Made by a program: the position numbers and the translations under genes. Below are positions 938 through 62,400 of a DNA stretch of 64,000 nucleotides, piece by piece. Below the pieces are notes generated by a model, which searched no databases, was not told the DNA's origin, and saw nothing but the letters and a program-made list of their open reading frames with translations. The DNA is from Onchidella celtica (taxonomy: Eukaryota; Mollusca; Gastropoda; Systellommatophora; Onchidiidae), in contig OZ007570.1 of NCBI GenBank assembly GCA_963931925.1, positions 30,662,688 through 30,726,687 on the forward strand, read 5' to 3'. The first letter of the stretch is position 1; each line of letters starts with the position of its first letter.

Positions 938-1043
938 GCCAACTTACGGCAAGCCTGCCTCGACCTAGACAGTACGGCTAAAGTAAAGCCAACTTACGGC
1001 AAGCCTGCTTCGACCTAGACAGTAGGCCTACGGCTAAAGTAAA
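938..1043. repeat. Two-unit tandem duplication differing by a GGCCTA hexamer
   Basis: Unit 1 (938-987, 50 bp) and unit 2 (988-1043, 56 bp) are nearly identical. The only length difference is six bases, GGCCTA, inserted after the TA at 973-974, which makes TAGGCCTA at 1023-1030 in unit 2. No coding role is seen. Confidence 0.93.
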
Positions 1044-2072
1044 CAAATCCAAGCCTAAAATAATACCGTCTTTCAGATTGTTTGAACGGGGATTACAGTA
1101 GTAGGCCTAATGAGCAGACTTAATTTATGAATTGGGTGAACCACGAAAATGTAAAAAATGTAATCCCACCAAAAGAAAAAAAAAAACTAACATTATGAAT
1201 TATGACAAAATACAAAATGTACGGATGAATTTCAACCTCCATCTCTAAAGAGGAATGAACAAGAATAAAATACTGAGACCTCCCGACAAAAACTACTTTC
1301 TTTAGCACTGGCCTTGACACCGTGTTTGCAGTCGCTTGCCGTAAGCAAAGATGGCTGCCTGGCTTTCTATTTGCGGCTATGTGACGTGACCGAGTCTTAC
1401 CTCTAGGTTTATCACAAACTCTTTGCGCGCAATGCATTTCGTGCATCTGTTTGTATATGAAAAGTGCCATTGTAAAAACTAACTCTTTCACGCGGTGGGA
1501 TAATTCTTCCGCTTTTATTAATTTATCAGTCAACTCCGGCAGTCTGTGGATCAACCAAGGAGTCCGCTTGAGACAGGAACTAACATCTATAAGTAAATCA
1601 GTTGTGTCTTGACTTCTAAGTACCATTCCATTCTTTAAAGATAGACCTGTCAAAGCAAGTATTGTGCTTTACCTGTGTCTTTTCCAACGATGAGACGAAG
1701 CCCACTGAATCCGTTGCTAAGATGTCCAACAGAATTTAGATGTTTTAAAAAGGTATATTCTTATTATAATTATGAGCTCCTGTAAAGATTTCCTTCCTCC
1801 CTACGTGTAAGTTGTTTCAGTGGGAATTGGGCAAAATCCTACTTTTGTTTTTATTACTATCATTACTAGCTAAAATGTCCAACCGTTTTATGAACGACAA
1901 TGGACTGGGCAGGCCATGGAAGTAATTGCGTGCATGTATACTCTCTTGTGAACATCAAACTCCTGCCCCCCCCCCCCACACACGCACACCACCCACACAC
2001 ATTTCATTCTTTCATTCCGCCTTATCTTAAGCCTCTTTTGCCTTTCCTAATTAATCCCGTCCTTGGCCCAAC
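1044..2072. other. No gene recognised
   Basis: AT-rich DNA with a TAGGCCTA octamer at 1102-1109 and a C-run near 1970. A 177-codon minus-strand open frame (1120-1653) has no recognisable domain, and I do not call it a gene. Confidence 0.5.
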
Positions 2073-2130
2073 ACCTTACCTACACCCCTCACCTTACCTA
2101 CACCCCTCACCTTACCTACACTCCTCACCT
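2073..2130. repeat. 18-bp minisatellite, about 3 units
   Basis: The unit accttacctacacccctc recurs at 2073, 2091 and 2109, the last with one substitution. It sits in a C/T-rich tract. Confidence 0.85.
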
Positions 2131-2324
2131 TCCTCTTTCGATCCTCCTTCACTTTTTCATCTTTTGCCACCCATTTTCATCTTCGTGTGTCACCCTTTAT
2201 CTAGTTCTTTTTTCTGGTCTGTGATCACCTAGATCTATGCGTTTTATGAAACACTTTTGCGTATTTGGAAAGGCTGTTGATATAAGTACGTACGCAATCC
2301 CAACCGTTTGCTCCAGGGGAGCAA

Positions 2325-4236: not shown

Positions 4237-4239
4237 TTA

Positions 4240-5350: not shown

Positions 5351-5354
5351 TTTC

Positions 5355-6712: not shown

Positions 6713-7060
6713 TCGCAGGCCTTGGCTTATTTAAACAATCATCAAGCACGTAATGGGACGGGGGATCCCCGCTTTACAAGTGACGTACATCGGATCTTTC
6801 GGCATTGCTTAGTAATCAAGGGCTTACGCAACACGCACACATACACGGCCACATTGAATGTCATGCAAAAAGAACATGACATTTTCATCATGTTGGCCTA
6901 CATAACTACATGTAAATATAGAAAGACGCAAGCAAGTTTCACAGCTGATTCACTCGCAAAATAGGCCTACTTTCTGTTTCATGTTTCTTTCCACATCATT
7001 TTTATGCTGAAACTACGCTTTATTCACTCCTGAATGACATAAGACGTCAGCACACTTTTT
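6713..7060 (+). repeat. Duplicated block X (partner at 23848-24318)
   Basis: It aligns over most of its length with 23848-24318, including catcggatctttcgg, gaatgtcatgcaaaaagaac and acataagacgtcagcacac. This copy has TACATGTA at 6907-6914 and TAGGCCTA at 6962-6969, where the partner has bare TA and GA. The partner ends where an RTE LINE begins. Confidence 0.85.
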
Positions 7061-9396
7061 AAAAAATAATAATATTCACACATTGGTCGTATCTTTGTCA
7101 TCACTTTCTGATGTCAGGGGCTAAAAATGAGGTTTGAGAGCTTCGTTTCAGGATGATCACCGGTTTTAGCACCTGCACCTCATAATGACTAAGGCACCTA
7201 CAGTGTGAAATCAAATATTTTTAGAGTTGAATAAGCCACTCTTCCTGTCGAATACACGTTTCTATGCCAAAACAAACATAGACAACCTTCTCGTACTTAC
7301 ATTGCAGAAAAGATATACATGTAGATATGTATCAAACATCAGCTGTACCATATCGGGAACGGCTTCTTAATCAACAGCGAACTTAATCCGATCGAACAAT
7401 GAATGAGCGCGCAATAGTAGTGGTGGGATGTGTGTATCTTACACGGTGTCAGAAGTCTAGATAAAGAGAGCCTTAACTTGCTACCCTCGCATACTTATAG
7501 AATAGAAACTATAGCATTTTTTTTTTTCAAGGCCAGGCTTACTCAATCGATGGCGATACATGTCAACCGAAAGGCACTTTCCAATCAGAAGACTTGACGT
7601 TTTGTGGCACCGTGTAAAAATGCTCGTCGTTGGCCAGGAGCCAGGAGGGGGCGTGGCATCCTTGTGATGGCATTGACCACGCTTTTTTCCCACCTGTCAC
7701 TCGTGCGGGGTAGAACTTTGAGCCCATCCAATGAAATGTAATCATGAAAGAACAGTTACAGGGAACTTGTAATGCTGTCCTACTGGCTAATGAAGCCACG
7801 CCCACTGTAAATACCAGTAAGAATGAACAGATAATCCCTCAATAGCCGGTCATGCTGGTTCTTTAAGTTGCACATGAACAACACAGGATTTCTTACTAGA
7901 CTCAAATGATAGTATGCGCGTGTGAGTATGTGTGTGAGAGATGATATTTGGGTCTGAGTTGGGAGATAAGCGTTGAAAATCAGGAAACGGCTCATTATCA
8001 CGCACGACGACAATATTGTCTGTGTTTGCTGGACATAAAATGACTAAGGGGGAAGTGTAAAATTTAAATGGCCCACTAATGGGTTAACTGCCAAATTTAT
8101 TATTGATATCGTGTGTACAAGGAAGCGAAAAACGAACACGAGGAAGGTCTAAAAAGAAAAAAAGAGAGGGTGGGGGCGGTGGATCTAGACACTCAGCACT
8201 CAAATTGATCACGTTTTGTCGGGGTGGATATTTTAAAATGTCAGCAGATGTGACTAATTTGAGATCTCCAACCATAATACATGTACATACATGTAAAAAT
8301 GTGAAGCCCGAAGGCAGATACGCTTCTGAGAACGAATATTCACCACGTGTACGGTGCTTACGTGTACTTCTACACTTAACTTGCTGATCATCGGTTTCAA
8401 TACACTACAAGCGGAATGCCACTCTAGGCTTACCATTCTAGGTTTGCATGAAGGGAAGTAAGGCCAAATTTTTCTTGTCCTTCCTGTCTTAGAGATACCA
8501 AATATCCGGTACGATGAGAGGAGACAGTCAATTTCTTAGTGCCTCTTTAAAAAAATCCCAGCTCGACCTAATCAAGCCCACTCACGTTACGCTGAGCCAG
8601 CGCTTGGTACACTGTTTACAAAAACTTAATGAAGTCAAGTATTTTCTCTGTTCGGTTGTAAAATAAGCCATTGTTTATATTTCCCACGCATTCACCGCTG
8701 TGTGACGCTGGGAAGCAGAGACCTGAACACGTTCCAGCCGTCCCACCTGATCATATCTAGTATCTTTGATTATATTGAGAAGCAAATTCCATGTTTTGAC
8801 TAAACAGAATAACCAATTTTGCGTCAGGTTGACAAATTGCCTTTTGTTGGATCACGATTTTGTGTATGTGTGTGGAAGTTTGAGGGTTATGGTTAGGATT
8901 AGGTTAAATTAATCAGCTACAATAACGTTTTCACTGACGACATGGTCTAACTTTTTCGGAAGTTGGCTGCAAACTGGCAACAAAAATCGTATTACGAGTA
9001 TATTTTTTGCAACATGGCTCAAAACATGGTTTCGTCAAGGCCCCTCCAGGATTAGGGACCCTAAAGCTCATGCTTCATCAGTTTCATAGTAGATCTCCGC
9101 CACTGAGTGTTATTCGCTCTTGATTCTAAAAACTATGAAAAATGAGATAATTATTAGCAGAGTGACCTACGCTTTTGTATTTGTTCTTGGAGATGAAAAT
9201 GCAATCATGATGATCCTTCGTGGACTTAACAGCTGACATGATTTGAATCTGGCTCAAAATAGAAATTCTGATGCAGTCCATGCAGGACGCCGAGAAACTA
9301 ACAAATCAAAATCAGCCGTGATCTTGCATATCTGCACAAGCATCTTTCAAGGCCGATATTAAATTGCAATGCATCAATAAAAAAAATTCATTATTA
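7061..9396. other. No gene recognised
   Basis: Over 2 kb of apparently unique DNA with TACATGTA octamers near 7316 and two close together at about 8278-8295. Open frames are at most about 94 codons and show no domain, splice or codon evidence. Confidence 0.4.
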
Positions 9397-10935: not shown

Positions 10936-10984
10936 TCTGAATATATATCAATATTTATATAATAATGAATTATAAATTTTTGTT

Positions 10985-11324: not shown

Positions 11325-12019
11325 TAATAAATGCTATGTTAAAATTTCATCAAGGTTTAATCATTACTTTTAAAGACATTTCAGATTAAGTGAGTGTCTG
11401 TCAAAAATTAATAATACAAGCCAGCTGATCAAAAACGATGAAGATTTTAACGCAAATTCAGCTATCCAGCGGACAACAGTTGAATATTTTTTCTCCAATT
11501 TTTTTCATCAAATCCAGTCCACCTTTCCAATCCAACCTTATATTGTAGATCTAAGTTTAGCAGACGACACGCAGCCAAGCCTTTTGCTTCCTATAGTGAT
11601 ACATTGATTACCTCCAAGTCGAGTGTATTCCAACTAATGTGAAATAATTTTTGACAGACACTTACATCTCTAAAAGTAATGATTAAATCTTGATGAAATT
11701 TTAACATAGCATTACACATATAATGGACCTAACTCTACTAAAATTCCTCACGGATTCATCAAAAGGATTGCGAGATATTTGGTGTCAATGTTGGGGCAGT
11801 TTGTTTTTTTTCAATCACCCGATACAATCATTTGTGTACAAGCCATGACCTTGGCCATTGTGCAAAGCGTTATCAGTGACATTAAATAAAGTCATATATC
11901 TACGATCGCCAGCACGTTGATAACTCCCTGTATCTTGTGTGGCTGGGTCGAATGTCACATGATACTGCACGAGAGCAAACTACCTGCAAAGACAAAACAT
12001 AGCTATTATCGCAGCAGTT

Positions 12020-15474: not shown

Positions 15475-15680
15475 TGTTTTGTACATATCTGAAATATAAT
15501 TATAATATTAATTAATGATTTGTTAAATTCGTAACCTTAATTTGACGGCCTCTGGTCACTGATACACATGTACATTTTGTTAAATGTTCCAAGAATGAGA
15601 CTGTTACAAAATTAAGCCGTGGGTGATCAGTAGGCCTAATTGCTAAATGTCACGCATAATATCTAAGTTCCATTCTAAGT
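15475..15680 (+). repeat. Duplicated block Y (partner at 27585-27760)
   Basis: Shares ttttgtacatatct, aatataattataatatta, acacatgtacattttgttaa and atgttccaagaatgagact with 27585-27760 at high identity. It carries TAGGCCTA at 15631-15638. In both places the block abuts a LINE (LINE 5' truncation point here, LINE 3' tail at the partner). Confidence 0.88.
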
Positions 15681-16453
15681 CTTTAACATTAAACTAGGAC
15701 TGTAATCCACGACTAAGTTCCAGTTATACGTACACTGTATCTCAATATAATGTACAGATTTTGTGTCATGTTACCTTATCGAATACACTTATGATATTTG
15801 ATTTAATTTACATGGAATAATATTTGAATAACAATTATGTCTTACATCTGCAGTGACCTCCTTTCGTTGGAAGGTAATGCACTCATCAGCCACACAACAA
15901 GGCATTTCGGTTTTCGCCCGCACCAGGGAAGCAGTTCTCTCTTGAATGCGTTTCAGGATTACATGTAAGTAAGTGTTTCACTTGTGTTTTACATACTAGT
16001 GATAAATAACGATATGTGACTGTTACAGTGTCAGCTCTTGTGTCTGTGACCTGTTTGAATTTCTTTAAATCATCTCTACACCCGTCAGAGCAAGTGTGTT
16101 GTTTCTGTGTGAGTACTGAATCTCATAAAACGTGACTATAATTTGCTTTAGTAAACGTAAATTATCACAGACTGCAGGAATGTACAGTTTGTCATTATTT
16201 TACTACATTTTTAATTGTTTTCCTTTTCCCTAGTCTCTCGGCCCTTTTACTGCAAACATCTTGGTATCTATTATAGTTTGTGCTAAAAAATCGTTAAATT
16301 AAAATTTCCTGTCTAATGAAAATGGATTTGAAGAACTCCAAAACACACAAACCTTAGCCAAGAATCAATTTCCTTACCACAAATTAATATCTACAGTACA
16401 GCTAGGCAGAAAATGGGTATTTTCATTAAACATCCTGGCTGACCAAACGACTG

Positions 16454-16512
<59 letters not shown>

Positions 16513-17650
16513 ATCGTGCTTTCCATTGTTAAAGACGAATATTTTCTAACTTTCCCCCTTCTAATGCACGTCGGGCAAATTTTGACATCATCATGGGCCC
16601 CTAGGCAGATTCCTTTTGTAATACATGTACTCAGAATTTTTTACCCATTTCAAAAACTAATGTCAGTTTGCGTGCATGGGGCCCCCTAAACCCTTGGAGC
16701 TCACAGAATGCTCATGCGTTGAGTCGGCTCTGGCTCCGTACGCACAGTGCAGCAACACTCAGCCCTCGCATTCCCCTGGTCGTATATTTTCTGCTTCTCA
16801 TGCACATACTGTTATATATAATGTTCACCACCTGCTCATAGGCTCTGATACTTTGTTTTTATTTATTGTTTAAATCACCGAAGTGTTAGTGATGAATGAG
16901 AGTGGTACAGAACGGAGCGAGAATGGTAGGTTGATCGATCGCCACCACTTGTTCGAAGACTGCAAGAAATGCTTATGGGTGTTGGCTAGCAGTGAAGTTT
17001 CAGATTCAGGATTATGTATCATGGCCATCAACTGACCTCAGACAGGGGCTTGGCTTGACGTAAACCCTGTATACACCTAGCAAATGTATGACAAATGCTT
17101 GGAAAATCTCAATTGGAAATACCGCAGACAAAATGCATATTTTCGGCTTGAGAAGCAAGCGACAGTTTCATGGAATGCTTGGAGCTGCACCAGCCAAACC
17201 ACGTAATCAAGTTGAGTCTTTGTGACATGTGCCAACAAATCAAAACACAACAACAACAACAACAACACACGGCATGTAAACTCTAGAACTTTGGTTAATA
17301 TTATGTATTGTTGTTGTAAATTAATGTTATATCATGTTCGAGAAAGAATGGAGAAAATAGAAGAGTGATTTATCACAATCTATTTGGATTTATTGTTTCC
17401 AAAGACCGTGGCGAAATAACCCAACTGATTGGACATTCGCCAGGTGTGAGGTAACTAAAGTCTCTGTTAATTTCTATTTGTCGGCCTCTCAATCACATTC
17501 TTCACGCCCTTCTTCTATTCACCGGCATACCATGAATCATCCACTGCCACCAGATATAATTTTCTTGTAAAATGCGCGTGCCCAAATGTCGACTGTCATG
17601 TCCTTTATCTTTCAACCGATAAATATTTTCAAGGAACAGCTTTCATACCA
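15681..17650. other. No gene recognised; (TAAA)n inside
   Basis: AT-rich DNA with a TAAA microsatellite at 16453-16514. A 110-bp stretch at 15854-15963 is bounded by good acceptor and donor sequences, but no protein family can be recognised in it. Confidence 0.4.
16453..16514. repeat. (TAAA)n microsatellite
   Basis: About fifteen uninterrupted AAAT units. Confidence 0.97.
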
Positions 17651-18975: not shown

Positions 18976-18980
18976 CTATT

Positions 18981-20337: not shown

Positions 20338-20445
20338 TATGCGTGATACAAATTTAAAGTCCACTCTTTACAAAGATACGCTAAAAGTTTTTGGGACGCT
20401 CTAAAAATATATTTATCAGGCATATTCACCATCTCGAGATTCAGT

Positions 20446-20859: not shown

Positions 20860-22010
20860 ATAAATTGAAGGTAAGTGTCTTCCTATATTTTCTCTCTCCG
20901 ACCACAGACATCGTACAGAATCTGTTGCACACACACAAGCACACACGCACGCACGTACACACTTTTAAAACACACAGGAAGATAGGCGTAACTGTCTAGT
21001 TAACTGTTTGTACCACGGAGGTACTAATAACTGTTATTAATAGCTCCATGGTTTGTACTCGTATTTGTAGGGGCTCTGAGTTTTGAACTTATTTTACATT
21101 TTTTATTTGGTCAGTTTTAAAAATTAAAAAACAATGTATTTCAGAATTTCATCTTTCATCTTTTACGAGCTTTTTTCGGGAAGATCTAGACATCTAGATC
21201 AATGTAAGAATTCTGCCCAGCCAGCGACTCCACAGAAATCCGAGCGTAAGATTGACGTCTAGACTGCTCATATGAGTGACATCATTCCTATGTTGATCCA
21301 CTCATTACGACATCACACCGACGTCAATTGGATGTAGGGAATCCGGCTCTATGGTAGTCCTACCAACCCTACGAAACTCTACATCAAATTGATGTCAGAG
21401 GGCTGCTGGCAGGGTATCTAGAAAGAAGATGGGGTAAACAAATAGATTTCACCGTTCTTTATTTTCACCCTGGGGCCATCCATAAAGTATACAAGCTCAG
21501 AGGAGAGTTAGTCCCAGGGTATTAAAAGCATACGGGCATACGGGGTGGGGAGAGTCTTAAGAGCGTATGTATTAAGTTACGGCAAAGAATGGAAAAGTTT
21601 GGTTTCATCTAATATTTTATTTTTGTTTCCAACCGAAAAGGTTCGGGGTTGTATAAAAATGGAATACAGGCTATGTATCCAATGAAACAGTCAAATAGTC
21701 CAAATCAGGGCATTGTCAGACATCCAGCACTCTAATGGTCATACGCTAGTACATGTACACGTGGGGGGAGGGGGGAGGGGGTTGAGGCCAAGCGTATGAA
21801 AAGGATACCGGGGGGGGGGGGGGATCGCCAAAGTCAAACAGATAGCCTTTTTTTTTAATTTGCCGTTATGTTTTATTCATTCAGTTACCTGGCAAAGGGG
21901 AAGTTTTTCTTCATGTAAGTCAATACCATTTAAACTGTCTATAATAACACTGTCCCCGCTGAATGACAGCTGACACACAATTGTCAAAACAAGCATAAAA
22001 GTGTGCTGAA
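20860..22010 (+). repeat. Duplicated block Z (partner at 27895-28380)
   Basis: Scattered homology in the same order as 27895-28380: a CA-rich stretch then caggaagata, ttcagaatttca-ttcatctt with acg, and attca-ttacc-gg-aagggg then tcttc and gtcaat. It is more diverged than blocks X and Y. A near-perfect hairpin (accacggaggtactaataac with its complement) sits at 21013-21054 in this copy. Confidence 0.55.
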
Positions 22011-24092: not shown

Positions 24093-24124
<32 letters not shown>

Positions 24125-24318
24125 TTTGAATGTCATGCAAAAAGAACATGGCATTTTTATCATGTTGGCCTACATAACTAAATATAGAAAGATGCAAGCA
24201 AGAGTTTTACAGCTGGTTCACCCGCTTAAGACTTTCTATTACATGTATCTTTCCACATCATATGCTGAAACTACGATTTAATCACTCGTGGATGACATAA
24301 GACGTCAGCACACTTTTT
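23848..24318 (+). repeat. Duplicated block X' (partner at 6713-7060)
   Basis: Second copy of block X with a CA microsatellite (about 24088-24123) and an extra stretch of about 110 bp (near 23975-24080) absent from the first copy. It ends at gtcagcacacttttt, where the LINE at 24319 begins. Confidence 0.85.
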
Positions 24319-29215: not shown

Positions 29216-29447
29216 CGCAGACATGACTGTAGCGTTGATAGACAGTGTTGATTATGGAAGAGATAGGATAGTACATGTATTTCTGTACTCTATCACACTC
29301 ATTCTAGCCCGTTTTTCGTTACTGTCTCAGCACATTGCGACCATGATATTTCTTTCTTTCTAGACTTGCCCCCCTTCCCCACCCCCGGCTCTGTAGGGAA
29401 TTCGGCAGTTTATATATATATATATGTCACGCATAATGTGTACAATT

Positions 29448-38099: not shown

Positions 38100-39820
38100 G
38101 TTATTCAACAACAACAACAAAAAAATATGAGCATAAATTATATATTTATTATAGATCTAGATCTATATATAATTCACCACCTTAGGTTTTGTTTGTTAAT
38201 ACTCCACTTACTGCACAACTGAGAAATTCAGTTACACATTTGCGGCTTTAGTATTAGGATAAGGAGTTAAACTAAATCGGAATTGTGAAGCAGCTTGATA
38301 AGTGCTACAGTGCAAATTAAAATAGTGTTAAAACGTGCATTCCTTATACCTCGCGTGCGTCTCGTTTTCCGGAAAATGGTTTGAGTAAACAACAGCTAGG
38401 GTCGTGACGTTGGCGGAGCTGCTATCAGTATCACAATGCTCTTGCACACGGCCAACCCTCTTTGCACACGGCGAAGGAGCTCCTTGCCCACGCACCTCTG
38501 TTCCCACGGCACTTTCTGGCGATTGGCCATCGCTCGATTTAACCAGAGTTTAACTTTGGGAACAGAGTAGACCACGTCATTGGAAATTCCCAATATTATT
38601 ATTTTGCATACTACACGTACATTCAAAGCTGCATCGAAGCATCTTGGTAATCGACTCCAAAACCGAAAAATAATCGAACGGCAAACTTTAAAAAATTCAT
38701 CGTTACCAGGCCAGTTGTACTAAAATAATATGTTTTTTCCTTCTCCTGAATAAGTAGCGAAACCGATTACAGGTACTACAGTTGTGGGGGACGGTGTCGA
38801 CCTATGCTCCAAAGTTTTCTAATGTATCCTAACTTTACAAGTTTCCTTACACCTACCTATGTCATGTATTCGCCTAATGATAAGGTTGTTTCCACCTGCC
38901 CCCAGATTGCCCTGTAGTAAACGTCTCATCTAATTATGCAAATGCACACTATCCACACTTACGTTTTAATCACACAAATGCACCTGATTAAAAAATAATC
39001 AAAAGAAGCAACAACAACAACAACAAAAAGTGAAATCCTGGATTATAGAGTGCATTGGGAACAGCAACAACAATAGAAGCCATTGCCTTTGGTACAAGTG
39101 TCGAAGCCTACCATATCGAGTATAAACTGACACCATCCTTTCAGCAGACCATTGCAGTCCTTGGCCAAGAACCCACCGGTCGAGTGATGCTCGTTCTGCA
39201 TGAAGGAGTAACCAATAATTGTGGACCTATTGCCATGTTGACCTTATTGCACAATTTAATACTAGACAGCACTGGTACCAGTACTCGTCAGGCATGAATG
39301 CTGGAAATGTGCAGGATTAGTTTCATCCACTCGAGCCCATATATCAAATGCTAACGGGAGCTGTCAGTCAGGCATAATCAGACACCTGTACTTAGATTAA
39401 GGATTTTCATATCTTGGTGTCGCTAGGATGTTTTCAAAGAGCGCAAGATGAACGTAATAATAATGATAATAATAATAACAGATGTGTTTTAACTGATTTC
39501 TCCCTCTCTTTCTACCTGTAATGTGTTCTGCAGTGACCCCTGTATATATACGTAACAATACCGCAAATGTTTTTTCTCTATAGGCTTTGGATTTATTCAC
39601 AGTAAGGATGAGGCAGTGCACGTGTGAGTGTGTGAGAGAGCATTAGTGTGTATGTGGAAAGGCGGGGGGGGGGGGGTATTTTGTTGGGGGTGGCTGAAAA
39701 CACCTGTATTATGCAAACGCTTTCTGGGCAGAATCTTTGTGAAGTCGGTGGAAAGCAGCTTCATTCGTAAAGACTTAAGCAACTAATTCCTCTGACCTCG
39801 CACTAAAATACAGTCAAGTT
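38100..39820. other. No gene recognised
   Basis: Contains TAGATCTAGATCTA (38152-38165) and an 80-codon plus frame (39055-39297), which reads like a protein but matches no family I know and has no clear splice context. Confidence 0.4.
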
Positions 39821-40715: not shown

Positions 40716-41580
40716 GTAGAAACAAATTCTGGCCAATTGAATGCTCCTTCTTTAAAATCTGTAAATTAACATTACCACTGCATGTAATTCGGTCCGATAT
40801 TTTTATGCTTGTCAGTTAATAGGTCTACCGATCTTGACAGTGTTGGTGCTGTTGTTATTTCGTCGTTTTTGATCAGAAAAACGAACATTTTAAAATAAAA
40901 CAGAACTTAACCACTAAACTTCATTCTTAGACATAGTTCCTTACTACCCTTTCTCCTCTGACAGCAACAGCAAAACAAGAACAAGAACAACAACAACAAT
41001 AACAACAACAACTACTGCAAGTGTTACTATATACACTTCTACAACAGTTCCTTTTGGACCTCTCTCTCTCTCTCTCTTACATGTATTTACTGTTTCAGTC
41101 AATTATTCACAATAAAAAGAAATGACCTTGGTGAGTGACCTTGGCTTCTCGAACTTCATACAACAAAATGTCACACGTTTCAACAGCTCAGCTCACACTG
41201 TATGTCAAAAGTAGGCAGCTGGTCTATTCCCATCGTCTAGAGGTGGTGTATTAGCAACGATGACAAGAAGATGAAATTTAAACAGCGATTTATTAGCAAA
41301 ATTTCAAAATTGAACCCCTTCATCAAATGTTTTAAAATTGAAATGGATTAGTAGTGTTTGTGAGTATAAAATCTAAGATTTTGTGAGCGATCTGATCAGT
41401 AGTGATTTATGATTGTCGAACTTTTCATGTTCGACGATAATCGATTACATACCTAGTCCATATTCGATCATGGAGCATGTATCGATATGGAGTTCCTCTT
41501 AGGGAGTCCACTTCGACTATTAAATAGGCCTGAGTCGATCGTCGAGGCCTAGGCGGCCTAACCTATTTCGCCTCGATTCT

Positions 41581-43784: not shown

Positions 43785-43940
43785 TTCTGTCTTCTCTTTA
43801 GTTAACTTTGTCAAGTATTGTTTGGGTTTTATTTCTCACGCGGGGTTTTGCAACATAGGCCTACAACCTTTTCTTTTTGCCCAATTTGGACTTTGCTTAT
43901 AGCCCTGCTGCGGCCCCAGTTTTTCTGTGGTTTTTATGAC
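43785..43940 (+). repeat. Dispersed repeat, copy 3
   Basis: Same family as copies 1 and 2. It alone carries TAGGCCTA (43856-43863) where the others have TA. It is followed by a TA(GATCTA)3 run at 43965-43984. Confidence 0.82.
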
Positions 43941-43944: not shown

Positions 43945-45745
43945 CCAGCGGTTGATTATAATAGTAGATCTAGATCTAGATCTAGTATAATACAGATCTA
44001 CTGTGTTTTTTTCAATGTATCTCTGGCACAAAATGATTTTTTGGTGATCTTTGGTTTTTAATTTGTTTCTCACAGAGTGTGCCAGGTGACTGCAGTTTTC
44101 ACAGGCACCCACAGCCTGTAAAAATGTCTCTGCTGAGACACTGACCAACCCCTCAAAACTGCATTACCTGCATGCAAGGTAGGAGAGTTCTGTGAAAAGT
44201 AATTTTTGTGGCACATGTATTTGATCATTCGAAGAAAAAAAGGTTCTTAATGAAACGAATTGGTTGAAAATTCAGTGCACAGTAAAAAATTTTAAAATAT
44301 AGACTAGATGATTTAAGGGTGAGCTGTTGTGCGCTTCTTGATGAAAATGCAGTGGCATTTTATTACAAATAAGGCAAGGTTACTCAAAGTTTGTGTCCAA
44401 CAAAGCCATGGCCTTTGCTTTGCAGTTGTTTTTTTTTACCAACTACTGCCACTGTCAGGCCGATATGACATTAACCCTTTCAATGTTTAATCCAGCCTTT
44501 CAATATGGCCCGCAATTTGTTCAACCAGGCCGAATCTGGCTTTGTCTATTATAACGCTGCCATGTGTTCAACCCAGCCGTTTCCAGCCGGCCAGTGTACC
44601 CCCGTTTTGTATACAATTTTGAGAGGAAGAACAATGCATGAATAGCTATAAATAGTAAATGATATCACCAGGTAATCTTCAGATGCCCACTGACCCAGTT
44701 TGAACTGTAAAGTGTGGGTTAGGCCTACAAGTAATGTATTGTATTACACATGGTCATCCAACAGGCCTGTTCCTCCCTCTAAGCCTATGTCATCATGTAT
44801 TGGTCAGCACAGGCTTGTACTGTAGTACACAGCATGTGCATAAAATTTACTAGTGTGGTGCCTCTGTGTGGGTAGTGTTGTGTGCTTGGATAAAAAACGG
44901 GATGGGATGCGATAGTGTGTAATAGTTTAATACGTATAGGCCTAGTGTCCGTCTGTCTCAGAGGTAGTGTCATACATCCCCGTACAGCATTTCATGTTCA
45001 CAAAACCAACAAGCAGATTTTGGCATTCCGATGTAAATAGGTACCTCTCTTTCTTTCCCTAACCCTCTCCTCTTTCCCTTTCTTTCTCAAATACAACCAC
45101 CCTGGAAGCGCACTGGTGTGCTATGCATACTATTTCTGTGTCTGTAAGGGAAGAGTGCATAGAGCTGAGTGTTCTTGGAAGACAGAAGAACTATAAAACC
45201 CAAAAGAGGACGCCATGTGAGGGTAAAATGAATTGAAAAACGTCATTTAAAACAAAAATTAACTGTAGTTATCATTGGTTGTGTTTTGAGCTGGCTTTAC
45301 GTTGTAACTTGTATTAAAGTTTTGAAGCTTATACATATACTTTTAGTGGTATAGTCAGTAACTGAGATGTATGTGATGATTTTTTTTACTATATTTAGAT
45401 CTCTCAAACTTTCACTTAAGATTTCTCTGGTTCATTTTTTGAGTTCACTTCCTGCCAAGAGTTTATGTTCAAATCAAATGAAGAGTGCACCACAGTCTGA
45501 CCTGCTGTAACATGTTAGGCATCATGAACGACTTTGCCCTTTATTCACATCAGGATTTTCATGAAATTTGTTTGTAATAGTGGACTGATTACGGTGTTAT
45601 CTCAATGCAGTACTATCTGAAAGTATTGAAATGACTGAAAGACTAGAAAGAGGTGTCACAAGTCTGGCATCTCTTGAATGTTTTACTTTTAATGACAATT
45701 GGCAGTCAGAACATTTAAAAAGTACATGTATATATTAATTCTAAA
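43945..45745. other. No gene recognised
   Basis: Contains TAGGCCTA at 44720-44727 and 44937-44944. A TTAACCCTTT piggyBac-like end at 44471 has no visible partner. Confidence 0.35.
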
Positions 45746-45749: not shown

Positions 45750-46550
45750 CAGTAGACAACGGTAAAACCGAAATCGGCGGGACCACGGGTTTGTTTTCGG
45801 TTTAGACAGAGTTTCGGTTTAGCAATAGGAGACTTGAAAAACGCCAGTTTCAAGAGAGGCAACCCAAATCACTATCATAGAGGACAAAAATACATTATGT
45901 AATGTAAGTGCACAGCTAAACGGGCTCAAGTCCTCGCTTGCTCTGCGTTTTTGGCTTAGAATGAGGATGGGTGATTGCTCAAGTCTAGGCACACTCGAAG
46001 CATGGATATGCGGGCGAATGTGGACTAACTCTCAGAACAGGGAGGCATGTGTGTGGACGGACAGTACAGAACCGTCGTCCTGCCGACCTCCTTGCCGTTA
46101 CCGTACACGATGTCATGAAATGCGCTGTCCGCAATAACTAGATCTAGTGTTGTCTCTCTGGTGTCATACATTTTACATGAAATGTCTCTCGTGATGCGCC
46201 AAACGTAACGTCTCCTGCCATCTGATTTCGGACCCGTGAGGTTATATGCCTCCATTCTCTTCCCCATCCCTGTAGTGCTTCCGCTCCCATGCAGGCCGGA
46301 CAGAGCGAAGCATGCTCTGCTTTTATTTTTTGAGGGGAGGGAGGTGTAGTGGGGTGATACAGTGTCTTGGCTCGATCTATGGCAAATCACAGTTGTCTGG
46401 CCACTGGCTCCTGCAATTTTCTTTTCGGTTCAACCACAGGCTTATTTCGGTTTAACAAAGATAAAGAGGGAAAAAATCGGGGATTCTTATTTTCCTTCGG
46501 TTTAGCGCTAGTTTTGGTTTATCCATTTTCGGTTTAATCGTTCTCCACTT
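45750..46550. mobile_element. Pogo/Tigger-like non-autonomous element
   Basis: The left end cagtagacaacggtaaaaccg and the reverse complement of the right end (aagtggagaacgattaaaccg) form inverted repeats of about 23 bp. TA lies on both sides (45748-45749 and 46551-46552). CAGTNGAC-type ends with a TA duplication are typical of the pogo branch of Tc1/mariner. Extra cggttta motifs occur just inside both ends. A 121-codon minus frame (46025-46390) is not a recognisable transposase. Confidence 0.78.
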
Positions 46551-46552: not shown

Positions 46553-48650
46553 TTAAACATTGACAAAGAGATCATACTCGACCACTTTTATTTTTCGAGC
46601 TGACACCTTTACTTGAGAATCTGTTGCTGAGCAAAGAAAATGAAACTGAAAGTAACCTTCATCCGTTGCAAATACTGAAAAAAAAAAGTGTTGTGCATTG
46701 TGAACTAAACTGAAACTATGGGTGCCCAATACCAAGAATGAAAACACAAAATTAGAAACTGAAACTGTACAGTTGTATTTGGTCAAGTATTGGATTTGAA
46801 ACTAAAACAGATTTTAACAATAAAAAGGATGCAGTTATGTGTGAACTGTAGAGTGTCGTCACACATCAGGCTAAGGAGCTGATAACAGACGAGTGCGGCC
46901 AACTTTTCCATCAAAGGGAAGCCTCCAGGACACGATAAGAACGCATAGTTAGGATGTTTTGCATTCACAGGTCTGGCGCTCGCCACCTCGTGTGAATGTG
47001 GAGGATAATTCACTGTAATGGCGCATTTTACGAAGCCGAATAGAGAAAACGCAAAGTTATGTTCACTGCCCCGCGGCCACTCTTGGCCTTGATTGAAGTT
47101 ACGGGAGGATTTCCATTGAGTCACACAGTAACATAGATATATAATGATACATGTACTGTAGTTCAAGGACGGGCGTGCCGTTAGCGGGGCAGGGGGTGCA
47201 GGTGCAGACCCCCGTGGCGAGCGCGTCCTCTAGATGGATGTTTTTGTAATTAATTTCTACCCGACTCGGGGATTAACACTCAGAACATGATGTATTTATT
47301 CTACATTTGAAACAAAATGAAAATTTGTAAGTAGCGTACACTTTGACCCAATGTAATTCGTTAAGATGCATAAAATGAGGCCGTGAAAAATATATATTGT
47401 AAAAAAAGGTTTTGCATCGACACATCTTTCATTGTTCTATCAGTGGTGTCATCTTTGAATGAAACTGTCTCTCCCGCCATCTCTCTCATTCCCACATCCG
47501 CATTTTTATGTGTGGCAGTGAAACCGATCAGTGCTGTGTCATTAATTTAAATTATTTTTATGCGCTGAGGGCTGAGATACGAAGAAATCACCGTTCCCTC
47601 TAATCAGTATCTATTCTCTGTTGTCTTTGACCCGGTCGGTCAGAGTCGCCAATCTCTGTGGCCTGCAGTGAGTTGATTATGACTATGAGACTGAACATAA
47701 CCGTGTCGCATCGATGTTAGGGCAACTAGTTGTTTTTCCTTGAGTTTGAGTTGATGTCATCGCACTTGGCCACTGCTTCCTACCGGGGAGATAAGAAGAA
47801 TTGATCCCACAAACCGGCGTCGACAATTACGGCATGGTGGTATAGTGCGGTCTTCACTTTGAATATAAGAAATTATCATAAATCATGTAAATTTATATGT
47901 TCCTCGTACAATTTTATTTTTTGGTTCTCAAATCTGTAAGGCTAGACTCCCATTCGTCGGGGTACGGTCAGGCTGCTCTCCTAACACCCGGCTGCGACTA
48001 GTAAAAACCTGCTTCGTGATCATTACAAAACGGCTGCGACATTCGTCTTTTGTCACTTTTCTCTTTCTCTGCGGGTTGAAATATAACTGAAACATGGCCG
48101 CAGTGTGGTTTCATCCATAAAAATTGCTCGACCGATGCAGCTATTCCGAAAACTCTTACAAATTATGTGGTGCGTGCAGAAGAAAGCGGGAAATGAACAC
48201 ACGGTTTGGAAGAACCTCGACCTTTTCTGCACATGTGCAGGGGCATTTTGTTACATCTCCGCTTTTTAAAAATTCTCTGTTTTCTTTCCAATTTCAGTCT
48301 TCAGTTTGATTCTGTTTAGGTCTTGCAACTATTGTTTTATTTCTTACGTCTAACATAATTTCTCGTCCTCTGTATGTGTTTATTGTGCTAAGCGGCTGAC
48401 CTGTTACACAGGAATACTTTGCCGTTACGCTCTTGCCTAGGCTTCTCAATTTTTACCTTGATAACAGGATACGCATTTGGTATTTGAAGATCTTTGTTTC
48501 TCGACGGCCTCAGCCCAAGGCGGGTGACCCAAATTTGGGGCTGGAAACTTAATGCCAGCATCCACTCTGTACACTTCACATGTGCCGCAGCAGAGACGGT
48601 CTGTGGCACTGACTTGCAACTATTATCTGTATTATTATGTATTATTTATT
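46553..48650. other. No gene recognised
   Basis: Two kilobases with only short open frames, none with domain or splice support. Confidence 0.35.
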
Positions 48651-48654: not shown

Positions 48655-49527
48655 AAAGGGGCCTTTAAATGTACAGTTGATTCATCGACAAAGTCAGAGT
48701 TTAACCGAGAGACGCTGGATCTGGGTCATCGCTGAACCGACAGTTTGTCGACGAGAGAAGTTCCGTTCAGACTGTTGTAGCTAGTTGGCGCGAAATTCAA
48801 AACGTCAACAGGATGGCTGAAGCAAGGCACCTGGATGATTTGGCAGCATGTTTTGTTCTCAGTTCGGTAAATTTCAATAAACTGTAGCACAGTTTCCTTA
48901 TTATTCCACCCGGACATTGTATCAGTAGTAGAACTAGAAGAACTGTGGTATAAATATGTAAAATAAAAGCAAAACTGGTAGCGTGTAGGCAAAAAATAAA
49001 CAGCACTAAACAGCTAGATCTAGATGAAACAATGGTGTAGGCCTCAACTGACTCCAACAAAGAGGGGCGTGAGAGTGAGATGTGTTGTTATATAATTAAA
49101 TTGCCTTCACTTTCAAAAATGAAGGGACGGGCCGTATGGTGAAAAAACAAAACACACAAAAAAATGTAAACTTGGTAATCCGGCATTAAATTGCGTTCCT
49201 CGCGGGATTTTTACTAATTTTAGGTCGCTGATCACGAAAATCATATTATATTTCTGATTTGACCAATATTTAGGAAATTTTTAGACTGCATTCTTAACTC
49301 CGCCTGCGGCAACATCAAAGAAGCCACTCCCTCGTCGCCACTCGTCGCTCATGCTTCAGTTCGCCTGCGGGAAAATATCTGGCGAAGCCAGATATCTGGT
49401 GCATTGACTGAGAACCCTTCGATATCGAGAGGGTCGCTCGTTTCCACGTTCATGTTTACGAGAAGTTGACAGGATCCCCGCCATTCTTAGTTTGTCGATG
49501 AATCAACTGTACGTTTAAAGGGGCCTT
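48655..49527. mobile_element. TIR element of about 870 bp, unassigned
   Basis: AAGGGGCCTTTAAATGTACA (48655 onward, continuing gttgattcatcgacaaa to about 48692) is mirrored at 49491-49527 with about three mismatches over 37 bp. No transposase is inside. A palindrome around aaatatctggcgaagccaga lies at about 49374-49399. No clear target duplication, so the superfamily is left open. CTAGATCTAG occurs inside at 49014-49023. Confidence 0.72.
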
Positions 49528-57800: not shown

Positions 57801-60208
57801 CTATGTTTGATCACTCCATGCAGAAATATCCTTCTGTGCAGGCGGTCGGCGGGATTCTGCCAGAAGAATCAGAAGACTGTTATATTCATGTCTATGTCCT
57901 TTATAGACACTGAAATGAGACCATACGCTATTTGTGAGAATTATCCACTGCTGTTATCCATTGTTCCCTGATTTCTGATCAGGGACCAAGTGTAAGTGTC
58001 TGCCTGTTGATTCAACAATGAACGTGAAGCTGACCTTAATTTTCCAGTAGGAGGGCTACCGAAGAATGCAAGACTTCCATGTACATTAGCTTGCAACTAG
58101 ATCTAGCATGAATGTCTGGTATACACATTTGTAAATTGAAATTGATGTGTCTGGATGAGGCTGGGGATTGCCAGCCCATCCTAGAGCAGATCTAGATCTA
58201 ACTTAACTACGTCAGTTTGTATTGACGAGTTTGATCCATTATAAGCGGTAGGCACAAATAACTGAGATAACATTGTCGTCTGAGACATTAGAATATTATT
58301 TGTTAGATAGTAGATAAGTAATACTTAAATTGTGAGTGAGACAGAATGATATAATCTTTTAGGAATCTAGAGGAGACTTCTAGTGACATATTATTGAATT
58401 TTCATCTGATGCTGCTGATGTTGTCTTTTTAATATGTAAGAGCTAGACGAAATTGTTAGGGAATAATAAGTAAATAAATTTGTGGCCCTGCAGGTCTGTT
58501 GATACAAAAATTCAGATTGTTATTAGTATGTGGCATGGTATGAAAGTGTAATTCCTAAATACCTCTCGATTTTTAAATGCAGTCGTAACACCTATAATTC
58601 CTTAATACCCAACTCGTAACATCCCCACTGTCCAAACAAATGTGGTGTTCAGTAATGCAGTAACAAAGGCTACATCTGAAAAAATTCTAATTTTAGAATA
58701 TTGGTCTGTTTAAAATAACCATGGTGTGTTTCTCAGGGTTGGCCCTAGATGGAGTTACATTCCTATGCATGTCAATTTACTATAAGTTTTTGCAAGCAGT
58801 TTGCTGTCCTTTGCTTCTGAACTGGAAAGTATTGTCATATGATGGCAATTGGCATATAGGAATCATGGAAAACGGAGAAAAATCTTCCCTGAGGTACAGC
58901 CTTAGTGTGTAAAGATTCTATCATGTGCCTTTGTTTATGGTGTTCGTACCACACACAATTTTTTGTGAGATCTACTGTATAATGGTGTCAAACAGGCTGA
59001 TCTTTGTTGTATAACACAAAGCCCATGATCTGACACTCCGTCCACATCTCTTTTATCAGTGTGTAGTGCATGTTACACAGTTCAGTTTATGTGAAACATC
59101 TCAATTTCCTCATGTGTTGAGGTTTGCCAAATCTTTTTCTCAGTGTTTTTAAAATATTTTTTAATATCCTTCAGATGGTACCTGTGACAAAAAAAAAATA
59201 TTTTAAACTTTTAAAAAATTTCTAGAAAACTGAAAAGTGTACCTTTGTTGATCTCTTCGTTCCACAAGAGTGCAGGTTGCCAAACTTTTAAATATCCATG
59301 TTGGCAGTGGTTGACTTTACACTCACGATAAATAGTTTGACATATATGATATGTGCATGCAGAGACTTGCAATGACAACAGTATGCTTTCTGATGTTTCT
59401 TGTTTCCAGGGGATTTTATGGCTAGAATTGTTGTAACAAAGTTGTTTTAGTGTGATGGTGATGTTGTGAAAGTAATGCAGATGTACACGATATAAGTATT
59501 CATTGACTTGGAATGTTGAGACTCATCGCAGCTTTCATGAATCAAGAAAATGCTATATGTATTAGAAGTAAAATACTGCATTGTTGCAATCTGAAAGAGA
59601 TTATTGTTTCAGACCATTTGAAGTTTGTTGCACATTTTTCTCAAAGATGAAATGTGGTGAGTATATATGCATACCAAAGTGCCATCTGAGAGGATTTCAG
59701 GATGAAGATTACTGTTGTGGTTACTGAACCATTGAATAAATCGTCCAGTGGTAAATCTAGCAAAGGCAGTATCCATCCAGCATAACCTGATTCATTGTTT
59801 GAAGTCTTTGGTTGTTGAGGATACTGGTCAGCGCCTATTTTACCTCATTTCCTGGTTTGGTTTCTTATACCTGTTGTCTTTTTTTGTTTGTTCCTCCTTC
59901 TTCCTGTTCTGGATGTTTCCTGGAGCCCTCAAATAGGTTTTTAGCTGTGAGAAGGGCTATAACCTATATTCATGCTCTCATTTCTTTTATTATAGAGTTG
60001 AGGTTGCCTACAAATAATGGAGGAAATTCAAGCAGACAGAGTGTTACCGGTAACTCATCAAGCCCACAGGCTGCATCCTCTGAAAATTATTATGAAAAAC
60101 TCTTGGAAAAAGAAGGAACTGGAGCTGGGATAAAGATGACAACACCTGTCGTACATCAGCCTCAAGAGATAACAGTTGCATTTGCTCACAATGATGTGGC
60201 TGTTGGAG
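50479..60208 (+). CDS. BIR-domain / trypsin-like peptidase fusion gene, 3' end outside window
   Basis: Eight exons join as 50479-51808, 52635-52715, 53569-53658, 54243-55055, 55358-55564, 56235-56486, 57050-57232 and 59996-60208. Every junction has AG/GT borders and every intron is phase 1; the sum is 3169 bp (1056 codons plus one base). Predicted layout: hydrophobic segments at about 33-61 and 140-162, an atypical BIR-like motif (C280, C283, H302, C306), a Ser-rich linker (about 310-540), a trypsin-like peptidase domain (about 560-830; apparent His640, Asp692, Ser795), a canonical BIR (about 898-962) and a polar tail. BIR proteins are inhibitors of apoptosis and bind caspases or related partners. 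The peptidase fold in the same chain suggests a defence or cell-death regulator, but function is inferred. The start at 50479 is the first in-frame ATG after the acceptor at 50453; 50566 is an alternative. A RING finger, common in IAPs, may follow beyond 64000. Confidence 0.85.
52091..52527. mobile_element. PiggyBac-like MITE in intron 1 of the BIR gene
   Basis: TTAA at 52087-52090 and 52528-52531 flank inverted ends CCCTTTGAACACTGGTCCCC and, complemented from the right, CCCTTTGAATACTATTGCCC. The TTAA target duplication and CCC-starting ends are the piggyBac signature. 437 bp, no transposase. Confidence 0.88.
52635..52715 (+). CDS. BIR gene exon 2 (Ser/Gly-rich linker)
   Basis: 81 bp, acceptor ttgttttag, donor GGAG-gtaagtgc. 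Encodes VPRSSQRTVSTCSSSSGYST and GSDGSSG. Phase 1 at both ends. Confidence 0.82.
52725..53300. repeat. Intron 2 minisatellite of about 36 bp
   Basis: Repeats of the form gttactgtgtccaaagagagtggcaagtattgta, at least twelve imperfect units. A 96-codon open frame over part of it is a by-product: a good donor (52716) lies before it. Confidence 0.85.
53569..53658 (+). CDS. BIR gene exon 3 (linker)
   Basis: 90 bp, acceptor tttggtacag, donor TTTCT-gtaagtaa. Encodes DDASHDARPNGAAASSGWVK then SDSRPCDKGF. Phase 1 at both ends. The frame is visible only when spliced. Confidence 0.75.
54243..55055 (+). CDS. BIR gene exon 4 (peptidase domain, His and Asp)
   Basis: 813 bp, acceptor catatacctag, donor CAGA-gtaagtaa. 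Starts YDSHTYLVETMDRKPNHQTV. The peptidase fold begins near GKKYLIGTGSCLEGKG. The catalytic-type His lies in IETNRHIVFDDTEA (codon 54659-54661) and the Asp in TTDVEVV (54815-54817). VFILGHPHGGEKV matches the HPHG strand seen in PA-clan peptidase domains of invertebrate proteins. A long non-peptidase N-terminal extension (residues about 501-565) is of unknown role. Confidence 0.88.
55358..55564 (+). CDS. BIR gene exon 5 (peptidase domain, catalytic Ser)
   Basis: 207 bp, acceptor gtgttttccag, donor AAAC-gtgagtcc. Encodes PHDPEQNVRKVLLYTADTCT then GSSGSPILTF. GSSGSP corresponds to the GDSGGP motif of trypsin-like enzymes, with catalytic Ser at codon 55426-55428. The oxyanion-forming Gly residues are kept. 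Confidence 0.88.
55806..56165. repeat. Intron 5 degenerate minisatellite of about 60 bp
   Basis: About six diverged units containing (c)actttcagtggaaattgg, atcagtacatttctc and agacactttt. It lies between exons 5 and 6 and is non-coding. Confidence 0.65.
56235..56486 (+). CDS. BIR gene exon 6 (first half of canonical BIR)
   Basis: 252 bp, acceptor tgtttcccag, donor GCAG-gtgggctt. After a QLTQEDIANHGRP linker it encodes RLDSFRSWTSEHIQRGKHLA then EAGFFFAG, the N-terminal three-helix part of a BIR domain. Splitting a BIR at this point is plausible because the joined sequence reads EAGFFFAGYADCARCFHCG without a gap. Confidence 0.9.
56528..56760. repeat. Intron 6 tandem duplication of about 118 bp
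   Basis: Two units sharing gcattcaactagtttatcc, ctttttcttaaccgatgga and cacaacatta-t-aatgt. Confidence 0.88.
57050..57232 (+). CDS. BIR gene exon 7 (zinc-binding half of canonical BIR)
   Basis: 183 bp, acceptor atttgacag, donor TGGG-gtaggagg. Encodes GYADCARCFHCGLGLRTWKP then GDDVYVEHHRYKPTCPFL. Zinc ligands C932, C935, H952 and C959 have exactly the family spacing C-x2-C-x16-H-x6-C. WKPGDD is the classic peptide-groove strand. Confidence 0.92.
57233..59995 (+). other. Intron 7 of the BIR gene
   Basis: 2.76 kb without a supported exon. A splice-bounded open stretch at 58737-58893 would break the phase-1 series and is not included. CTAGATCTAG (58097-58106) and TAGATCTA (58194-58201) lie here. 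Confidence 0.6.
59996..60208 (+). CDS. BIR gene exon 8 (polar linker)
   Basis: 213 bp, acceptor tttattatag, donor TGGAG-gtaagtga. Encodes ELRLPTNNGGNSSRQSVTGN and, later, YYEKLLEKEGTGAGIKMTTP. Low-complexity and charged; no domain. If the donor is skipped, the frame stops seven bases later (TGA 60214-60216), so an alternative short C-terminus is possible. Confidence 0.75.
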
Positions 60209-61375
60209 GTAAGTGAATCTGAGATGGGCCTAGTCAATTTCGTGGGTTTATGGCATATTGTGTTTGCAGTGGTGTTAAAATTGGAATAGATGCCGTCTTT
60301 GAAACATGCAGCTTAACTTTATGAAATATTTTGAGATCTCAACATTTTGTCCTAATTTTGCCACAAAGTGCTTACAAAAAGTATGATAAAAACAAAATAA
60401 AATTACCATATGATAACAAATGAATGAACTTCTCATAGAATAAAATTGTGCAAAAGTAATCAATACATCCTGTCTGTAGGACATCAATGTTTATGATGAT
60501 ATATCTGTAGATGTCCCACAAAAGAGCAGTTGGGCAGTTGTTTTCATAAGTTTTTTTGATACTCATATAACTTAAGTGTGTGACATAAATTTCATTTTAG
60601 TATCGAGGTATACTAAATCTGTGCTGCATGTTATTTGAATATGGCATCTGTGAGCTGGGGTATTGCTTCTTGGCATGTTGCACTTTCCCATCTGTTGGTT
60701 TGTTCTGGTTTGCCATTGTTCCTTGTTTGCCATTGTGTGTCAGTGATTACTTTTCATTATCATGCCACTGCTTTGAAAACTAAATGGGAAGGGAGGGGGG
60801 ATGATGGGAGGGGGTTGGGTTCCTCCCTATCTAACACTAGCTAAAGGAGTGCACTGTTCACTGACTCCATCTCTCATGTGGCTGGACTGCACCATTATCT
60901 GGCAGTCCAACTTTGTTCCCTTTCATTATGAAGTCAGAGAGATGATCAGCTTTTCCCTTCAATCAGTAATTCTCTTGTCACACTGCCAGAGACAAGCAAT
61001 TTAACAGCTGATGGCTGTGTTTAATTTTTGCTGATGGTGAGCTTGTGCGCTGTTCAATACGGCCCCTTTGGAGTGCAAGGGAGTCAAGGGCAGAAACTCT
61101 TGACTGATACAGTTTATCTTCATCTGAAGATCTCCTATAGTCTCATTTGGCCAAGACTTTCAAGTATTATTTTTTTTTTACCTAGAAACTCTAATTTGAC
61201 AATAGCCGGTCAGTGTTGCTAATAGGTGCTTTTGAGCTCATTGGTTTTTGTCTCGCTTTGGCCATTTTCTGTCACATTTGTAGATTTTTACATCATCCAG
61301 ATTTGCTAGATTAGTCTTATCCTGTGGCAGTTAGATAGTATGAAACCTCAAAGCACCTAAAGCACTCCTTTGACA
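60209..61375 (+). other. Intron 8 of the BIR gene, proximal part
   Basis: No exon recognised. AT-rich, with short open frames lacking domain or phase support. Confidence 0.55.
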
Positions 61376-61379
61376 CAAC

Positions 61380-62400
61380 CTCTGCAATGTTTTGTGAACC
61401 TCAAAACCAAGGAAACATCCAATATTGCTATCAACGCCAGCGGCTCCCTTCTAGCTTGACCTCAGTCCCTCAAAACCAAGAAACACATCCAATATTGCTA
61501 TCAACACCAGCGGCTCCCTTCTAGCTTGATCTCAGTCCCTCAAAACCAAGAAACACATCCAATATTGCTATCAACACCAGCGGCTCCCTTCTAGCTTGAT
61601 CTCAGTCCCTCAAAACCAAGAAACACACCCAATATTGCTATCAACACCAGTGGCTCCCTTTTAGCTTGATCTCAGTCCCTCAAAACCAAGAAACACATCC
61701 AATATTGCTATCAACACCAGCGGCTCCCTTCTAGCTTGATCTCAGTCCCTCAAAACCAAGAAACACATCCAATATTGCTATCAACACCAGCGGCTCCCTT
61801 CTAGCTTGATCTCAGTCCCTCAAAACCAAGGAACACATCCAATATTGCTATCAACACCAGCGGCTCCCTTCTAGCTTGATCTCAGTCCCTCAAAACCAAG
61901 AAACACATCCAATATTGCTATCAACACCAGCGGCTCCCTTCTAGCTTGATCTCAGTCCCTCAAAACCAAGAAACACACCCAATATTGCTATCAACACCAG
62001 TGGCTCCCTTCTAGCTTGATCTCAGTCCCTCAAAACCAAGAAACACATCCAATATTGCTATCAACACCAGCGGCTCCCTTCTAGCTTGATCTCAGTCCCT
62101 CAAAACCAAGAAACACATCCAATGTTGCTACATGTATCAGCACCAACTTCTCCCTCCTGGCTTGATCTCAATCTCTCAAAACCAACACATTCAATATTGC
62201 TATCAGCACCAACTTCTCCCTTCTAGCTTGATCTCAATCTCTCAGAACCAAAGAACACATCCAGTATTACCATCAGCAATAACTTACCCCTCCTGGCACG
62301 ATCTCAATCTCTCAAAACCAGAGAACACAATCCAATATTGTTATCAGCATCAACTTCTCCTTTCTAGCTTGATCACAATCCAAAACCTGATACTAGTATC
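61380..62400. repeat. 70-bp minisatellite, about 14 units
   Basis: Unit cctcaaaaccaagaaacaca continuing tccaatattgctatcaacaccag and ggctcccttctagcttgatctcagt, with a period of exactly 70 bp over about ten units that are almost identical, then degenerate units to about 62400. One unit carries TACATGTA (62129-62136) where the others have TA. The high similarity of the central units suggests recent homogenisation. Confidence 0.95.

Follow-up and report, generated by a model that had tools for sequence, protein, structure and literature searches.

The closest described counterparts of the sequences reported here are the footprints of Tc1/mariner transposons (Tc1, Tc3, ISY100, Sleeping Beauty). 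We have analyzed a stretch of 64,000 nucleotides from the gastropod Onchidella celtica (contig OZ007570.1, positions 30,662,688 to 30,726,687), referred to as the window, together with the assembly it belongs to (GCA_963931925.1; 1,140,862,475 bp in 43 contigs). Octamers in which a palindromic tetramer stands between two TA dinucleotides, namely TAGGCCTA (GGCC), TACATGTA (CATG) and TAGATCTA (GATC), are in excess here, and we lean towards explaining most of the excess TACATGTA and TAGGCCTA as scars left on excision by cut-and-paste transposons of the Tc1/mariner type that target TA. Both systems share a TA target with its duplication and end bases between two TAs, and the published cutting geometry fits the octamer footprint (PMC2170065, PMC3878927), with Sleeping Beauty leaving C(A/T)GTA (PMC3878927). 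Unlike in the known footprints, symmetric four-base scars dominate in O. celtica.

The Pogo/Passer group, for which TA duplication and footprints of 0-4 bp are described (PMC9976928), is similar in its TA duplication and in the abundance of DDE_1 (pogo/Jerky type) transposases in O. celtica (diverse frames, 150 matches, the best 150 of 407 candidates scored). It differs in that no pogo ends were resolved, the one pogo-type DDE_1 locus looked at (L071) having no clear or convincing inverted ends. The PHIS groups, tried as candidates for GG ends, do not fit because none duplicates a bare TA; ISL2EU duplicates AT, Pangu ANT, NuwaI CWG and NuwaII TNA (PMC4482050). Titles and the beginnings of abstracts of open-licence PMC papers contained no account of such octamers as a genome-wide scar class, and the match for TACATGTA with footprint and excision concerned, by its listing, Phytophthora promoter motifs.

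In the window we counted nine TAGGCCTA, 15 TACATGTA and 11 TAGATCTA, where a first-order Markov model predicts 0.5, 1.3 and 0.9, respectively. A first-pass annotation of the sequence had claimed nine, about fifteen and about ten copies, more than chance would give; its nine coordinates for TAGGCCTA match ours exactly, the two approximate counts agree with the present ones, and the excess it observed is confirmed as real. The individual positions are:

1023..1030, strand (.), TAGGCCTA octamer, by word count
1102..1109, strand (.), TAGGCCTA octamer, by word count
6962..6969, strand (.), TAGGCCTA, 6-bp gain against sister copy 24102-24318, which has GA
15631..15638, strand (.), TAGGCCTA octamer, by word count
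31823..31830, strand (.), TAGGCCTA octamer, by word count
37604..37611, strand (.), TAGGCCTA octamer, by word count
43856..43863, strand (.), TAGGCCTA, 6-bp gain against sister copies 41642-41782 and 43482-43588
44720..44727, strand (.), TAGGCCTA octamer, by word count
44937..44944, strand (.), TAGGCCTA octamer, by word count
107..114, strand (.), TACATGTA octamer, by word count
6907..6914, strand (.), TACATGTA, 6-bp gain against sister copy 24102-24318, which has a bare TA
7316..7323, strand (.), TACATGTA octamer, by word count
8278..8285, strand (.), TACATGTA, with the next TACATGTA 10 bp away
8288..8295, strand (.), TACATGTA octamer, by word count
15960..15967, strand (.), TACATGTA octamer, by word count
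16622..16629, strand (.), TACATGTA octamer, by word count
21750..21757, strand (.), TACATGTA octamer, by word count
24240..24247, strand (.), TACATGTA, sister copy with TTCATGTT of equal length
29272..29279, strand (.), TACATGTA octamer, by word count
35695..35702, strand (.), TACATGTA octamer, by word count
41078..41085, strand (.), TACATGTA octamer, by word count
45723..45730, strand (.), TACATGTA octamer, by word count
47148..47155, strand (.), TACATGTA octamer, by word count
62129..62136, strand (.), TACATGTA, gain within a 70-bp tandem array, confined to a single unit
2230..2237, strand (.), TAGATCTA octamer, isolated
11546..11553, strand (.), TAGATCTA octamer, isolated
38152..38165, strand (.), two TAGATCTA chained via a common TA
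43965..43984, strand (.), three TAGATCTA chained via common TAs
46139..46146, strand (.), TAGATCTA octamer, by word count
49015..49022, strand (.), TAGATCTA octamer followed by GATGA, a partial chain
58098..58105, strand (.), TAGATCTA octamer, by word count
58193..58200, strand (.), TAGATCTA octamer preceded by AGATC, a partial chain

Five of the 11 TAGATCTA starts (43965, 43971, 43977, 38152 and 38158) form overlapping 6-bp chains. When the 16 palindromic words of the form TANNNNTA are pooled, the window contains 87 against 15.8 expected; 29 of these are TATATATA in AT tracts, a count that is an AT-tract effect. The 240 non-palindromic words of the same form amount to 349 against 260.6 expected. 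Note that the window is rich in TAGGCCTA, with about 2.8 times the average density of the genome (9 copies, where 50.5 per Mb would give 3.2).

Genome-wide we found 57,668 copies of TAGGCCTA (reversed word 4,983), 141,062 of TACATGTA (reversed word 53,745), 145,787 of TAGATCTA (reversed word ATCTAGAT 78,668) and 15,387 of TACTAGTA (reversed word 23,979). Relative to Markov expectations of orders 1-3, scaled from a 264-kb sample that comprises the window and 20 pieces of 10 kb each taken at round coordinates, the counts are raised 5.7-6.8-fold for TAGGCCTA, 4.7-6.2-fold for TACATGTA, 8.4-10.3-fold for TAGATCTA and 1.2-1.7-fold for TACTAGTA. In a ranking of the 256 palindromic octamers in this sample, TACATGTA comes first, TAGGCCTA fourth and TAGATCTA fifth, and the remaining members of the top seven consist of A/T letters only. 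TGACGTCA is likewise over-represented among palindromic octamers of the sample (12 against 2.8). Tandem arrays of about 20-bp units, each with TACATGTA, occur at C1:383670-383982 and C1:393762-393829 and raise the raw genome count of that word.

Every octamer can be parsed as TA, a left end, the complement of a right end and TA, and in the 264-kb sample we have crossed 8 of the 16 dinucleotides in this manner. Matched ends were strongly raised (GG-GG 18 against 2.0 expected, CA-CA 42 against 7.0, GA-GA 23 against 3.7) and other self-paired ends mildly so (TC-TC 7 against 2.5, CT-CT 4 against 2.2). Mixed ends stayed near expectation (GG-TG 6 against 6.4, CA-TC 7 against 10.2, GG-TC 6 against 4.8), with the exception of TCCT/AGGA (19 against 8.3). 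Beyond the 8 x 8 table, we noted CCGG (5 against 1.1) and GCAA (12.5 against 4.0), and AT-rich or non-palindromic words (ATAA, ATTA) were raised as well. The first-pass annotation had proposed specificity for palindromes as a test, and as evidenced by this analysis the excess is restricted to self-paired ends, with mild exceptions. Two copies of a single inverted end would produce such matched pairs. Among one-sided words, those of the CA type (TACATA/TATGTA) were in slight excess (235 against 201.5), and those of the GA type numbered 442 against 146.8, a count swamped by GATA repeats.

Comparison of the window with itself, by basic local alignment search tool (BLAST) and alignment, revealed 6-bp gains at 6907 (CATG), 6962 (GGCC) and 43856 (GGCC), and by alignment at 62129 (CATG); for 6962, one alignment drew separate short gaps and the other a single 6-bp gap. 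The octamer at 62129 is confined to one of the 14 units of a 70-bp tandem array (61399-62381), and it is read as a gain because 12 of the other 13 units have TA at the equivalent place, the last one having CA. The five sister-copy comparisons claimed earlier do exist, but they cover only four octamer sites. An equal-length octamer placed at 24237 is also present, opposite TTCATGTT, with its true start at 24240; it probably arose by point mutation and would therefore not be a scar.

An all-versus-all alignment of the longer sequences gave 995 alignment rows with 897 distinct insertion-bearing sites, after exclusion of loci L003-L005, which overlap L002, of loci below 1,000 bases, of alignments below 70% identity or 80 columns and of gaps whose flanks matched at fewer than 13 of 20 bases. 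The insertion is 6 bp long at 42 of the 897 sites, and in 11 of these 42 it takes the form of TANNNNTA opposite a single TA. Seven of the 11 are palindromes (five TACATGTA and two TAGGCCTA), for which the chance under random tetramers is about 1e-6; one further gain is TAGGTCTA. The 11 TA-type gains at length 6 compare with 0-3 at each of the lengths 3-5 and 7-12, and 6-bp indels at TA are thus commoner than others, as the first-pass annotation had required of its reading. Among palindromic gains of lengths 3-12, seven of eight have length 6, the remaining one being TAATTA, and none of the five AT-type 6-bp gains is palindromic. Length 2 contributed 7 trivial cases of TA to TATA, and a single one-sided gain, TACATA, was seen in the aligned repeats.

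In the mechanism that we favor, an element of the Tc1/mariner type would insert at TA and duplicate it. At excision, the transposase would cut precisely at the element's 3' ends and, at its 5' ends, two bases further in, leaving each flank with a two-base overhang, CA or GG, and with both overhangs filled in and bluntly joined the product would be TA-CATG-TA or TA-GGCC-TA. While these cutting and repair steps are what we infer, the 6-bp gains at bare TA, the palindromy, the restriction to matched ends and the genome-wide scale are observed.

Resident elements whose inverted ends start with CA or GG just inside TA are likewise observed. Tc1-type DDE_3 transposases gave 150 matches (the best 150 of 500 candidates scored), open frames of 337-376 codons being present in many, and Transposase_1 gave 148 matches in the assembly. 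Three CA-ended Tc1 families beside TA (A, B and C) have the ends CACTCATGC, CACTCGAGCC and CAGTAGTG, and three CT-ended ones, with open frames kept, have CTAGACAGC, CTGACAGG and CTCATGATC; in both groups the boundary at TA is assumed from the known rule of the superfamily. To our knowledge, ends of the GG or GA type do not resemble those of Tc1. A random sample yielded one GG-ended family, TA-GGCCATGGGACCA (L018:1271-2182, contig C5), which is about 900 bp long and non-coding. Allowing at most one mismatch, its ends occur 406 + 411 = 817 times in the genome (control 4 + 7), with many convergent pairs about 900 bp apart and exact ends in all 100 of the matches listed, and in ten pairs compared the sequence outside the TA differs from copy to copy. 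A search for TA-GG ends at the boundaries of high-scoring segment pairs returned the GGCCATGGGACCA family and a TA-GGAGAC boundary within the 133-bp repeats of the window. Of the three end types that the first-pass annotation had suggested as termini of past or present element families, CA is represented by three families and GG by one in which no transposase was seen, and no convincing family was found for GA. Three TA-flanked inverted-repeat hits (L012:19-129, window 48672-49511 and L027:5162-6107) were rejected as inner parts of longer inverted repeats.

The reading of the octamers as excision footprints, which the first-pass annotation had put forward, is partly supported, by matched ends, 6-bp gains at TA and cutting geometry, and it is opposed by the flanks, the one-sided GG words, the CTAG count and the behavior of GATC, as well as by some further points that we gather here. 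Flanks were compared after merging identical and then similar ones. CA-ended elements sit in TATA, position +1 being T in 96% and A/T in 25 of the 26 flanks compared, whereas the 110 flanks of TACATGTA have T 42, C 30, G 20 and A 18 at this position, or A/T in 60 of 110 (P=2.7e-5 for A/T against G/C). For GG-ended elements, +1 is A/T in 21 of 26 as compared to 50 of 128 for TAGGCCTA with repeat copies merged (P=1.5e-4), and C occupies +1 in 57 of the 128 TAGGCCTA flanks, where the background is 20% (P=2e-10). Since their flanks differ from those of the octamers, the CA- and GG-ended families tested are not the main source, and other families than the young ones examined would have to be inferred. 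That the scars stem from the young resident families found here, CA-ended Tc1 and GG-ended, is accordingly very improbable; ends and adjoining TA fit exactly, but the flanking preferences are significantly different and 817 GG ends stand against tens of thousands of octamers. The outward flank starts with CA in 30 of 128 TAGGCCTA (8.2% after TA in general, 3 of 26 in the GG-ended family), which suggests that GG-type scars may have had a TG-TA-CA-like target.

One-sided GG scars, TAGGTA/TACCTA, show no excess in the 264-kb sample (76 against 76.6). How far the weak excess of TACTAGTA counts against the reading depends on the copy number of the CT-ended families that accompany it. The TA beside the GG ends is there by selection, because it was within the search word, and a transposase was sought in vain in three copies of this family (L018, L049 and L070), so that no autonomous copy was found: the L018 copy has no stop-free stretch above 61 codons and the L049 copy no frame above 92. 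A 1103-codon frame in L070 was considered as a transposase and rejected; by Pfam it is a reverse transcriptase with endonuclease, and therefore an inserted retroelement. For GATC, inverted-repeat searches of the sampled sequence yielded no convincing GA-ended, TA-flanked element, no GATC gain at TA was seen among the 897 insertion sites, and 32 of 100 TAGATCTA matches listed lie in homogeneous 6-bp chains. The octamers are not all independent events, since some TACATGTA stand in 20-bp arrays and 70 TAGGCCTA reduce to 64 on merging. The Tc1 element of C. elegans has CA ends, and its scar of four added bases is read as one-sided. Its typical somatic product is described as such a +4 scar (PMC13148408), in which it differs from the octamers reported here.

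The arrangement of the octamers in chains raises the question of alternative origins. TACATGTAGGCCTA, in which octamers of different types have a common TA, occurs 695 + 761 = 1,456 times genome-wide (reversed control 2 + 2), about 7 times the approximately 213 expected if independent, arrayed TACATGTA being excluded from the expectation. Triple chains exist at C1:6583457-6583476 and C1:10598180-10598199, and over the initial 585 kb of C1 a CATG octamer stands no more than 25 bp from 4 of 27 GGCC octamers, where 0.18 such cases are expected; the 264-kb sample contains no mixed GGCC/CATG chain (0.04 expected per order). Such chains could build up by a TA-specific micro-insertion, such as a side reaction of end joining or of a transposase, that adds a palindromic tetramer and TA without excision and prefers TAs already bearing a unit. 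The raised symmetric GG scars without one-sided ones, the mixed and triple chains, and flanks unlike those of the elements examined agree with this idea, which we nevertheless hold to be distinctly improbable: TA duplication and end dinucleotides are predicted by Tc1/mariner cutting, chains are also expected from shared target hot spots, and an enzyme adding constant GG, CA or GA ends is not known to us. A wider proposal, unlikely as well but deserving more weight, is that TA plus a palindromic tetramer is, or recently was, inserted almost only symmetrically and with a preference for sites next to earlier units, either by TA-specific micro-insertion or by undescribed GG/GA transposons; in these lineages excision is proposed to be much more frequent than persistence.

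Hexanucleotide microsatellites are similar in their tandem TAGATC units, and the octamers might be units or relics of arrays (TAGATC)n, (TACATG)n and (TAGGCC)n, formed by slippage and mutation. In support of this, 46 of the 100 TAGATCTA matches listed have another within 100 bp, 32 of the 100 are in 6-bp chains, and the reversed word ATCTAGAT is abundant too. Nevertheless, 54 of these 100 are isolated, a density of about 76 per Mb where about 12-15 would be expected (about 5-fold), only one 6-bp pair is found among 100 TAGGCCTA matches listed, slippage cannot make the chains that mix unit types, and single gains of CATGTA or GGCCTA occur at bare TA, so that as a general account we consider slippage quite unlikely. 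TAGATCTA may still be a third scar class, although part of it consists of hexamer chains and its gain at TA was not seen in the aligned repeats. Carriage in high-copy repeats, or selection as binding sites, is close to negligible as an explanation. TACATGTA does recur with a 20-bp period in certain arrays (C1:383670-383982), and five groups among the 70 TAGGCCTA are copies of the same repeat, but 64 of 70 TAGGCCTA and 55 of 55 TACATGTA survive merging, their unrelated flanks largely refute carriage in repeats, and sister copies of the same repeats lack the octamers.

If the preferred explanation by excision is true, the approximately 160,000 excess CATG and GGCC octamers would be a countable record of the transposons that departed and not only of those that stayed, and a single assembly would suffice to read how often elements excise, which ends they have and how the breaks are repaired. 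The number is an upper bound on events, because some octamers belong to tandem arrays or multiplied together with repeats. The missing one-sided GG scars and the weak CTAG signal bear on the repair of germ-line breaks in this lineage.

Further repeats were noted alongside. A Tc1-type family (L029-L038 and L046) has inverted ends of about 200 bp beginning with CACTCATGCACATAAG and open frames of up to 384 codons, and as several copies score alike it was probably active recently. Three copies of a 540-bp element, 92-94% identical, occupy window positions 10397-10936, 18978-19517 and 19794-20340, with inverted ends of about 38 bp (TGTGAGTGTGCATGAG...) and an internal 133-bp tandem duplication; in the copy at 10397-10936, the one that was read, TA is present at both ends. 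Finally, a dispersed repeat at 10993-11322 and 28465-28846 of the window contains GGGTTTGAACCCGGG, which we take to resemble a tRNA-derived promoter box.

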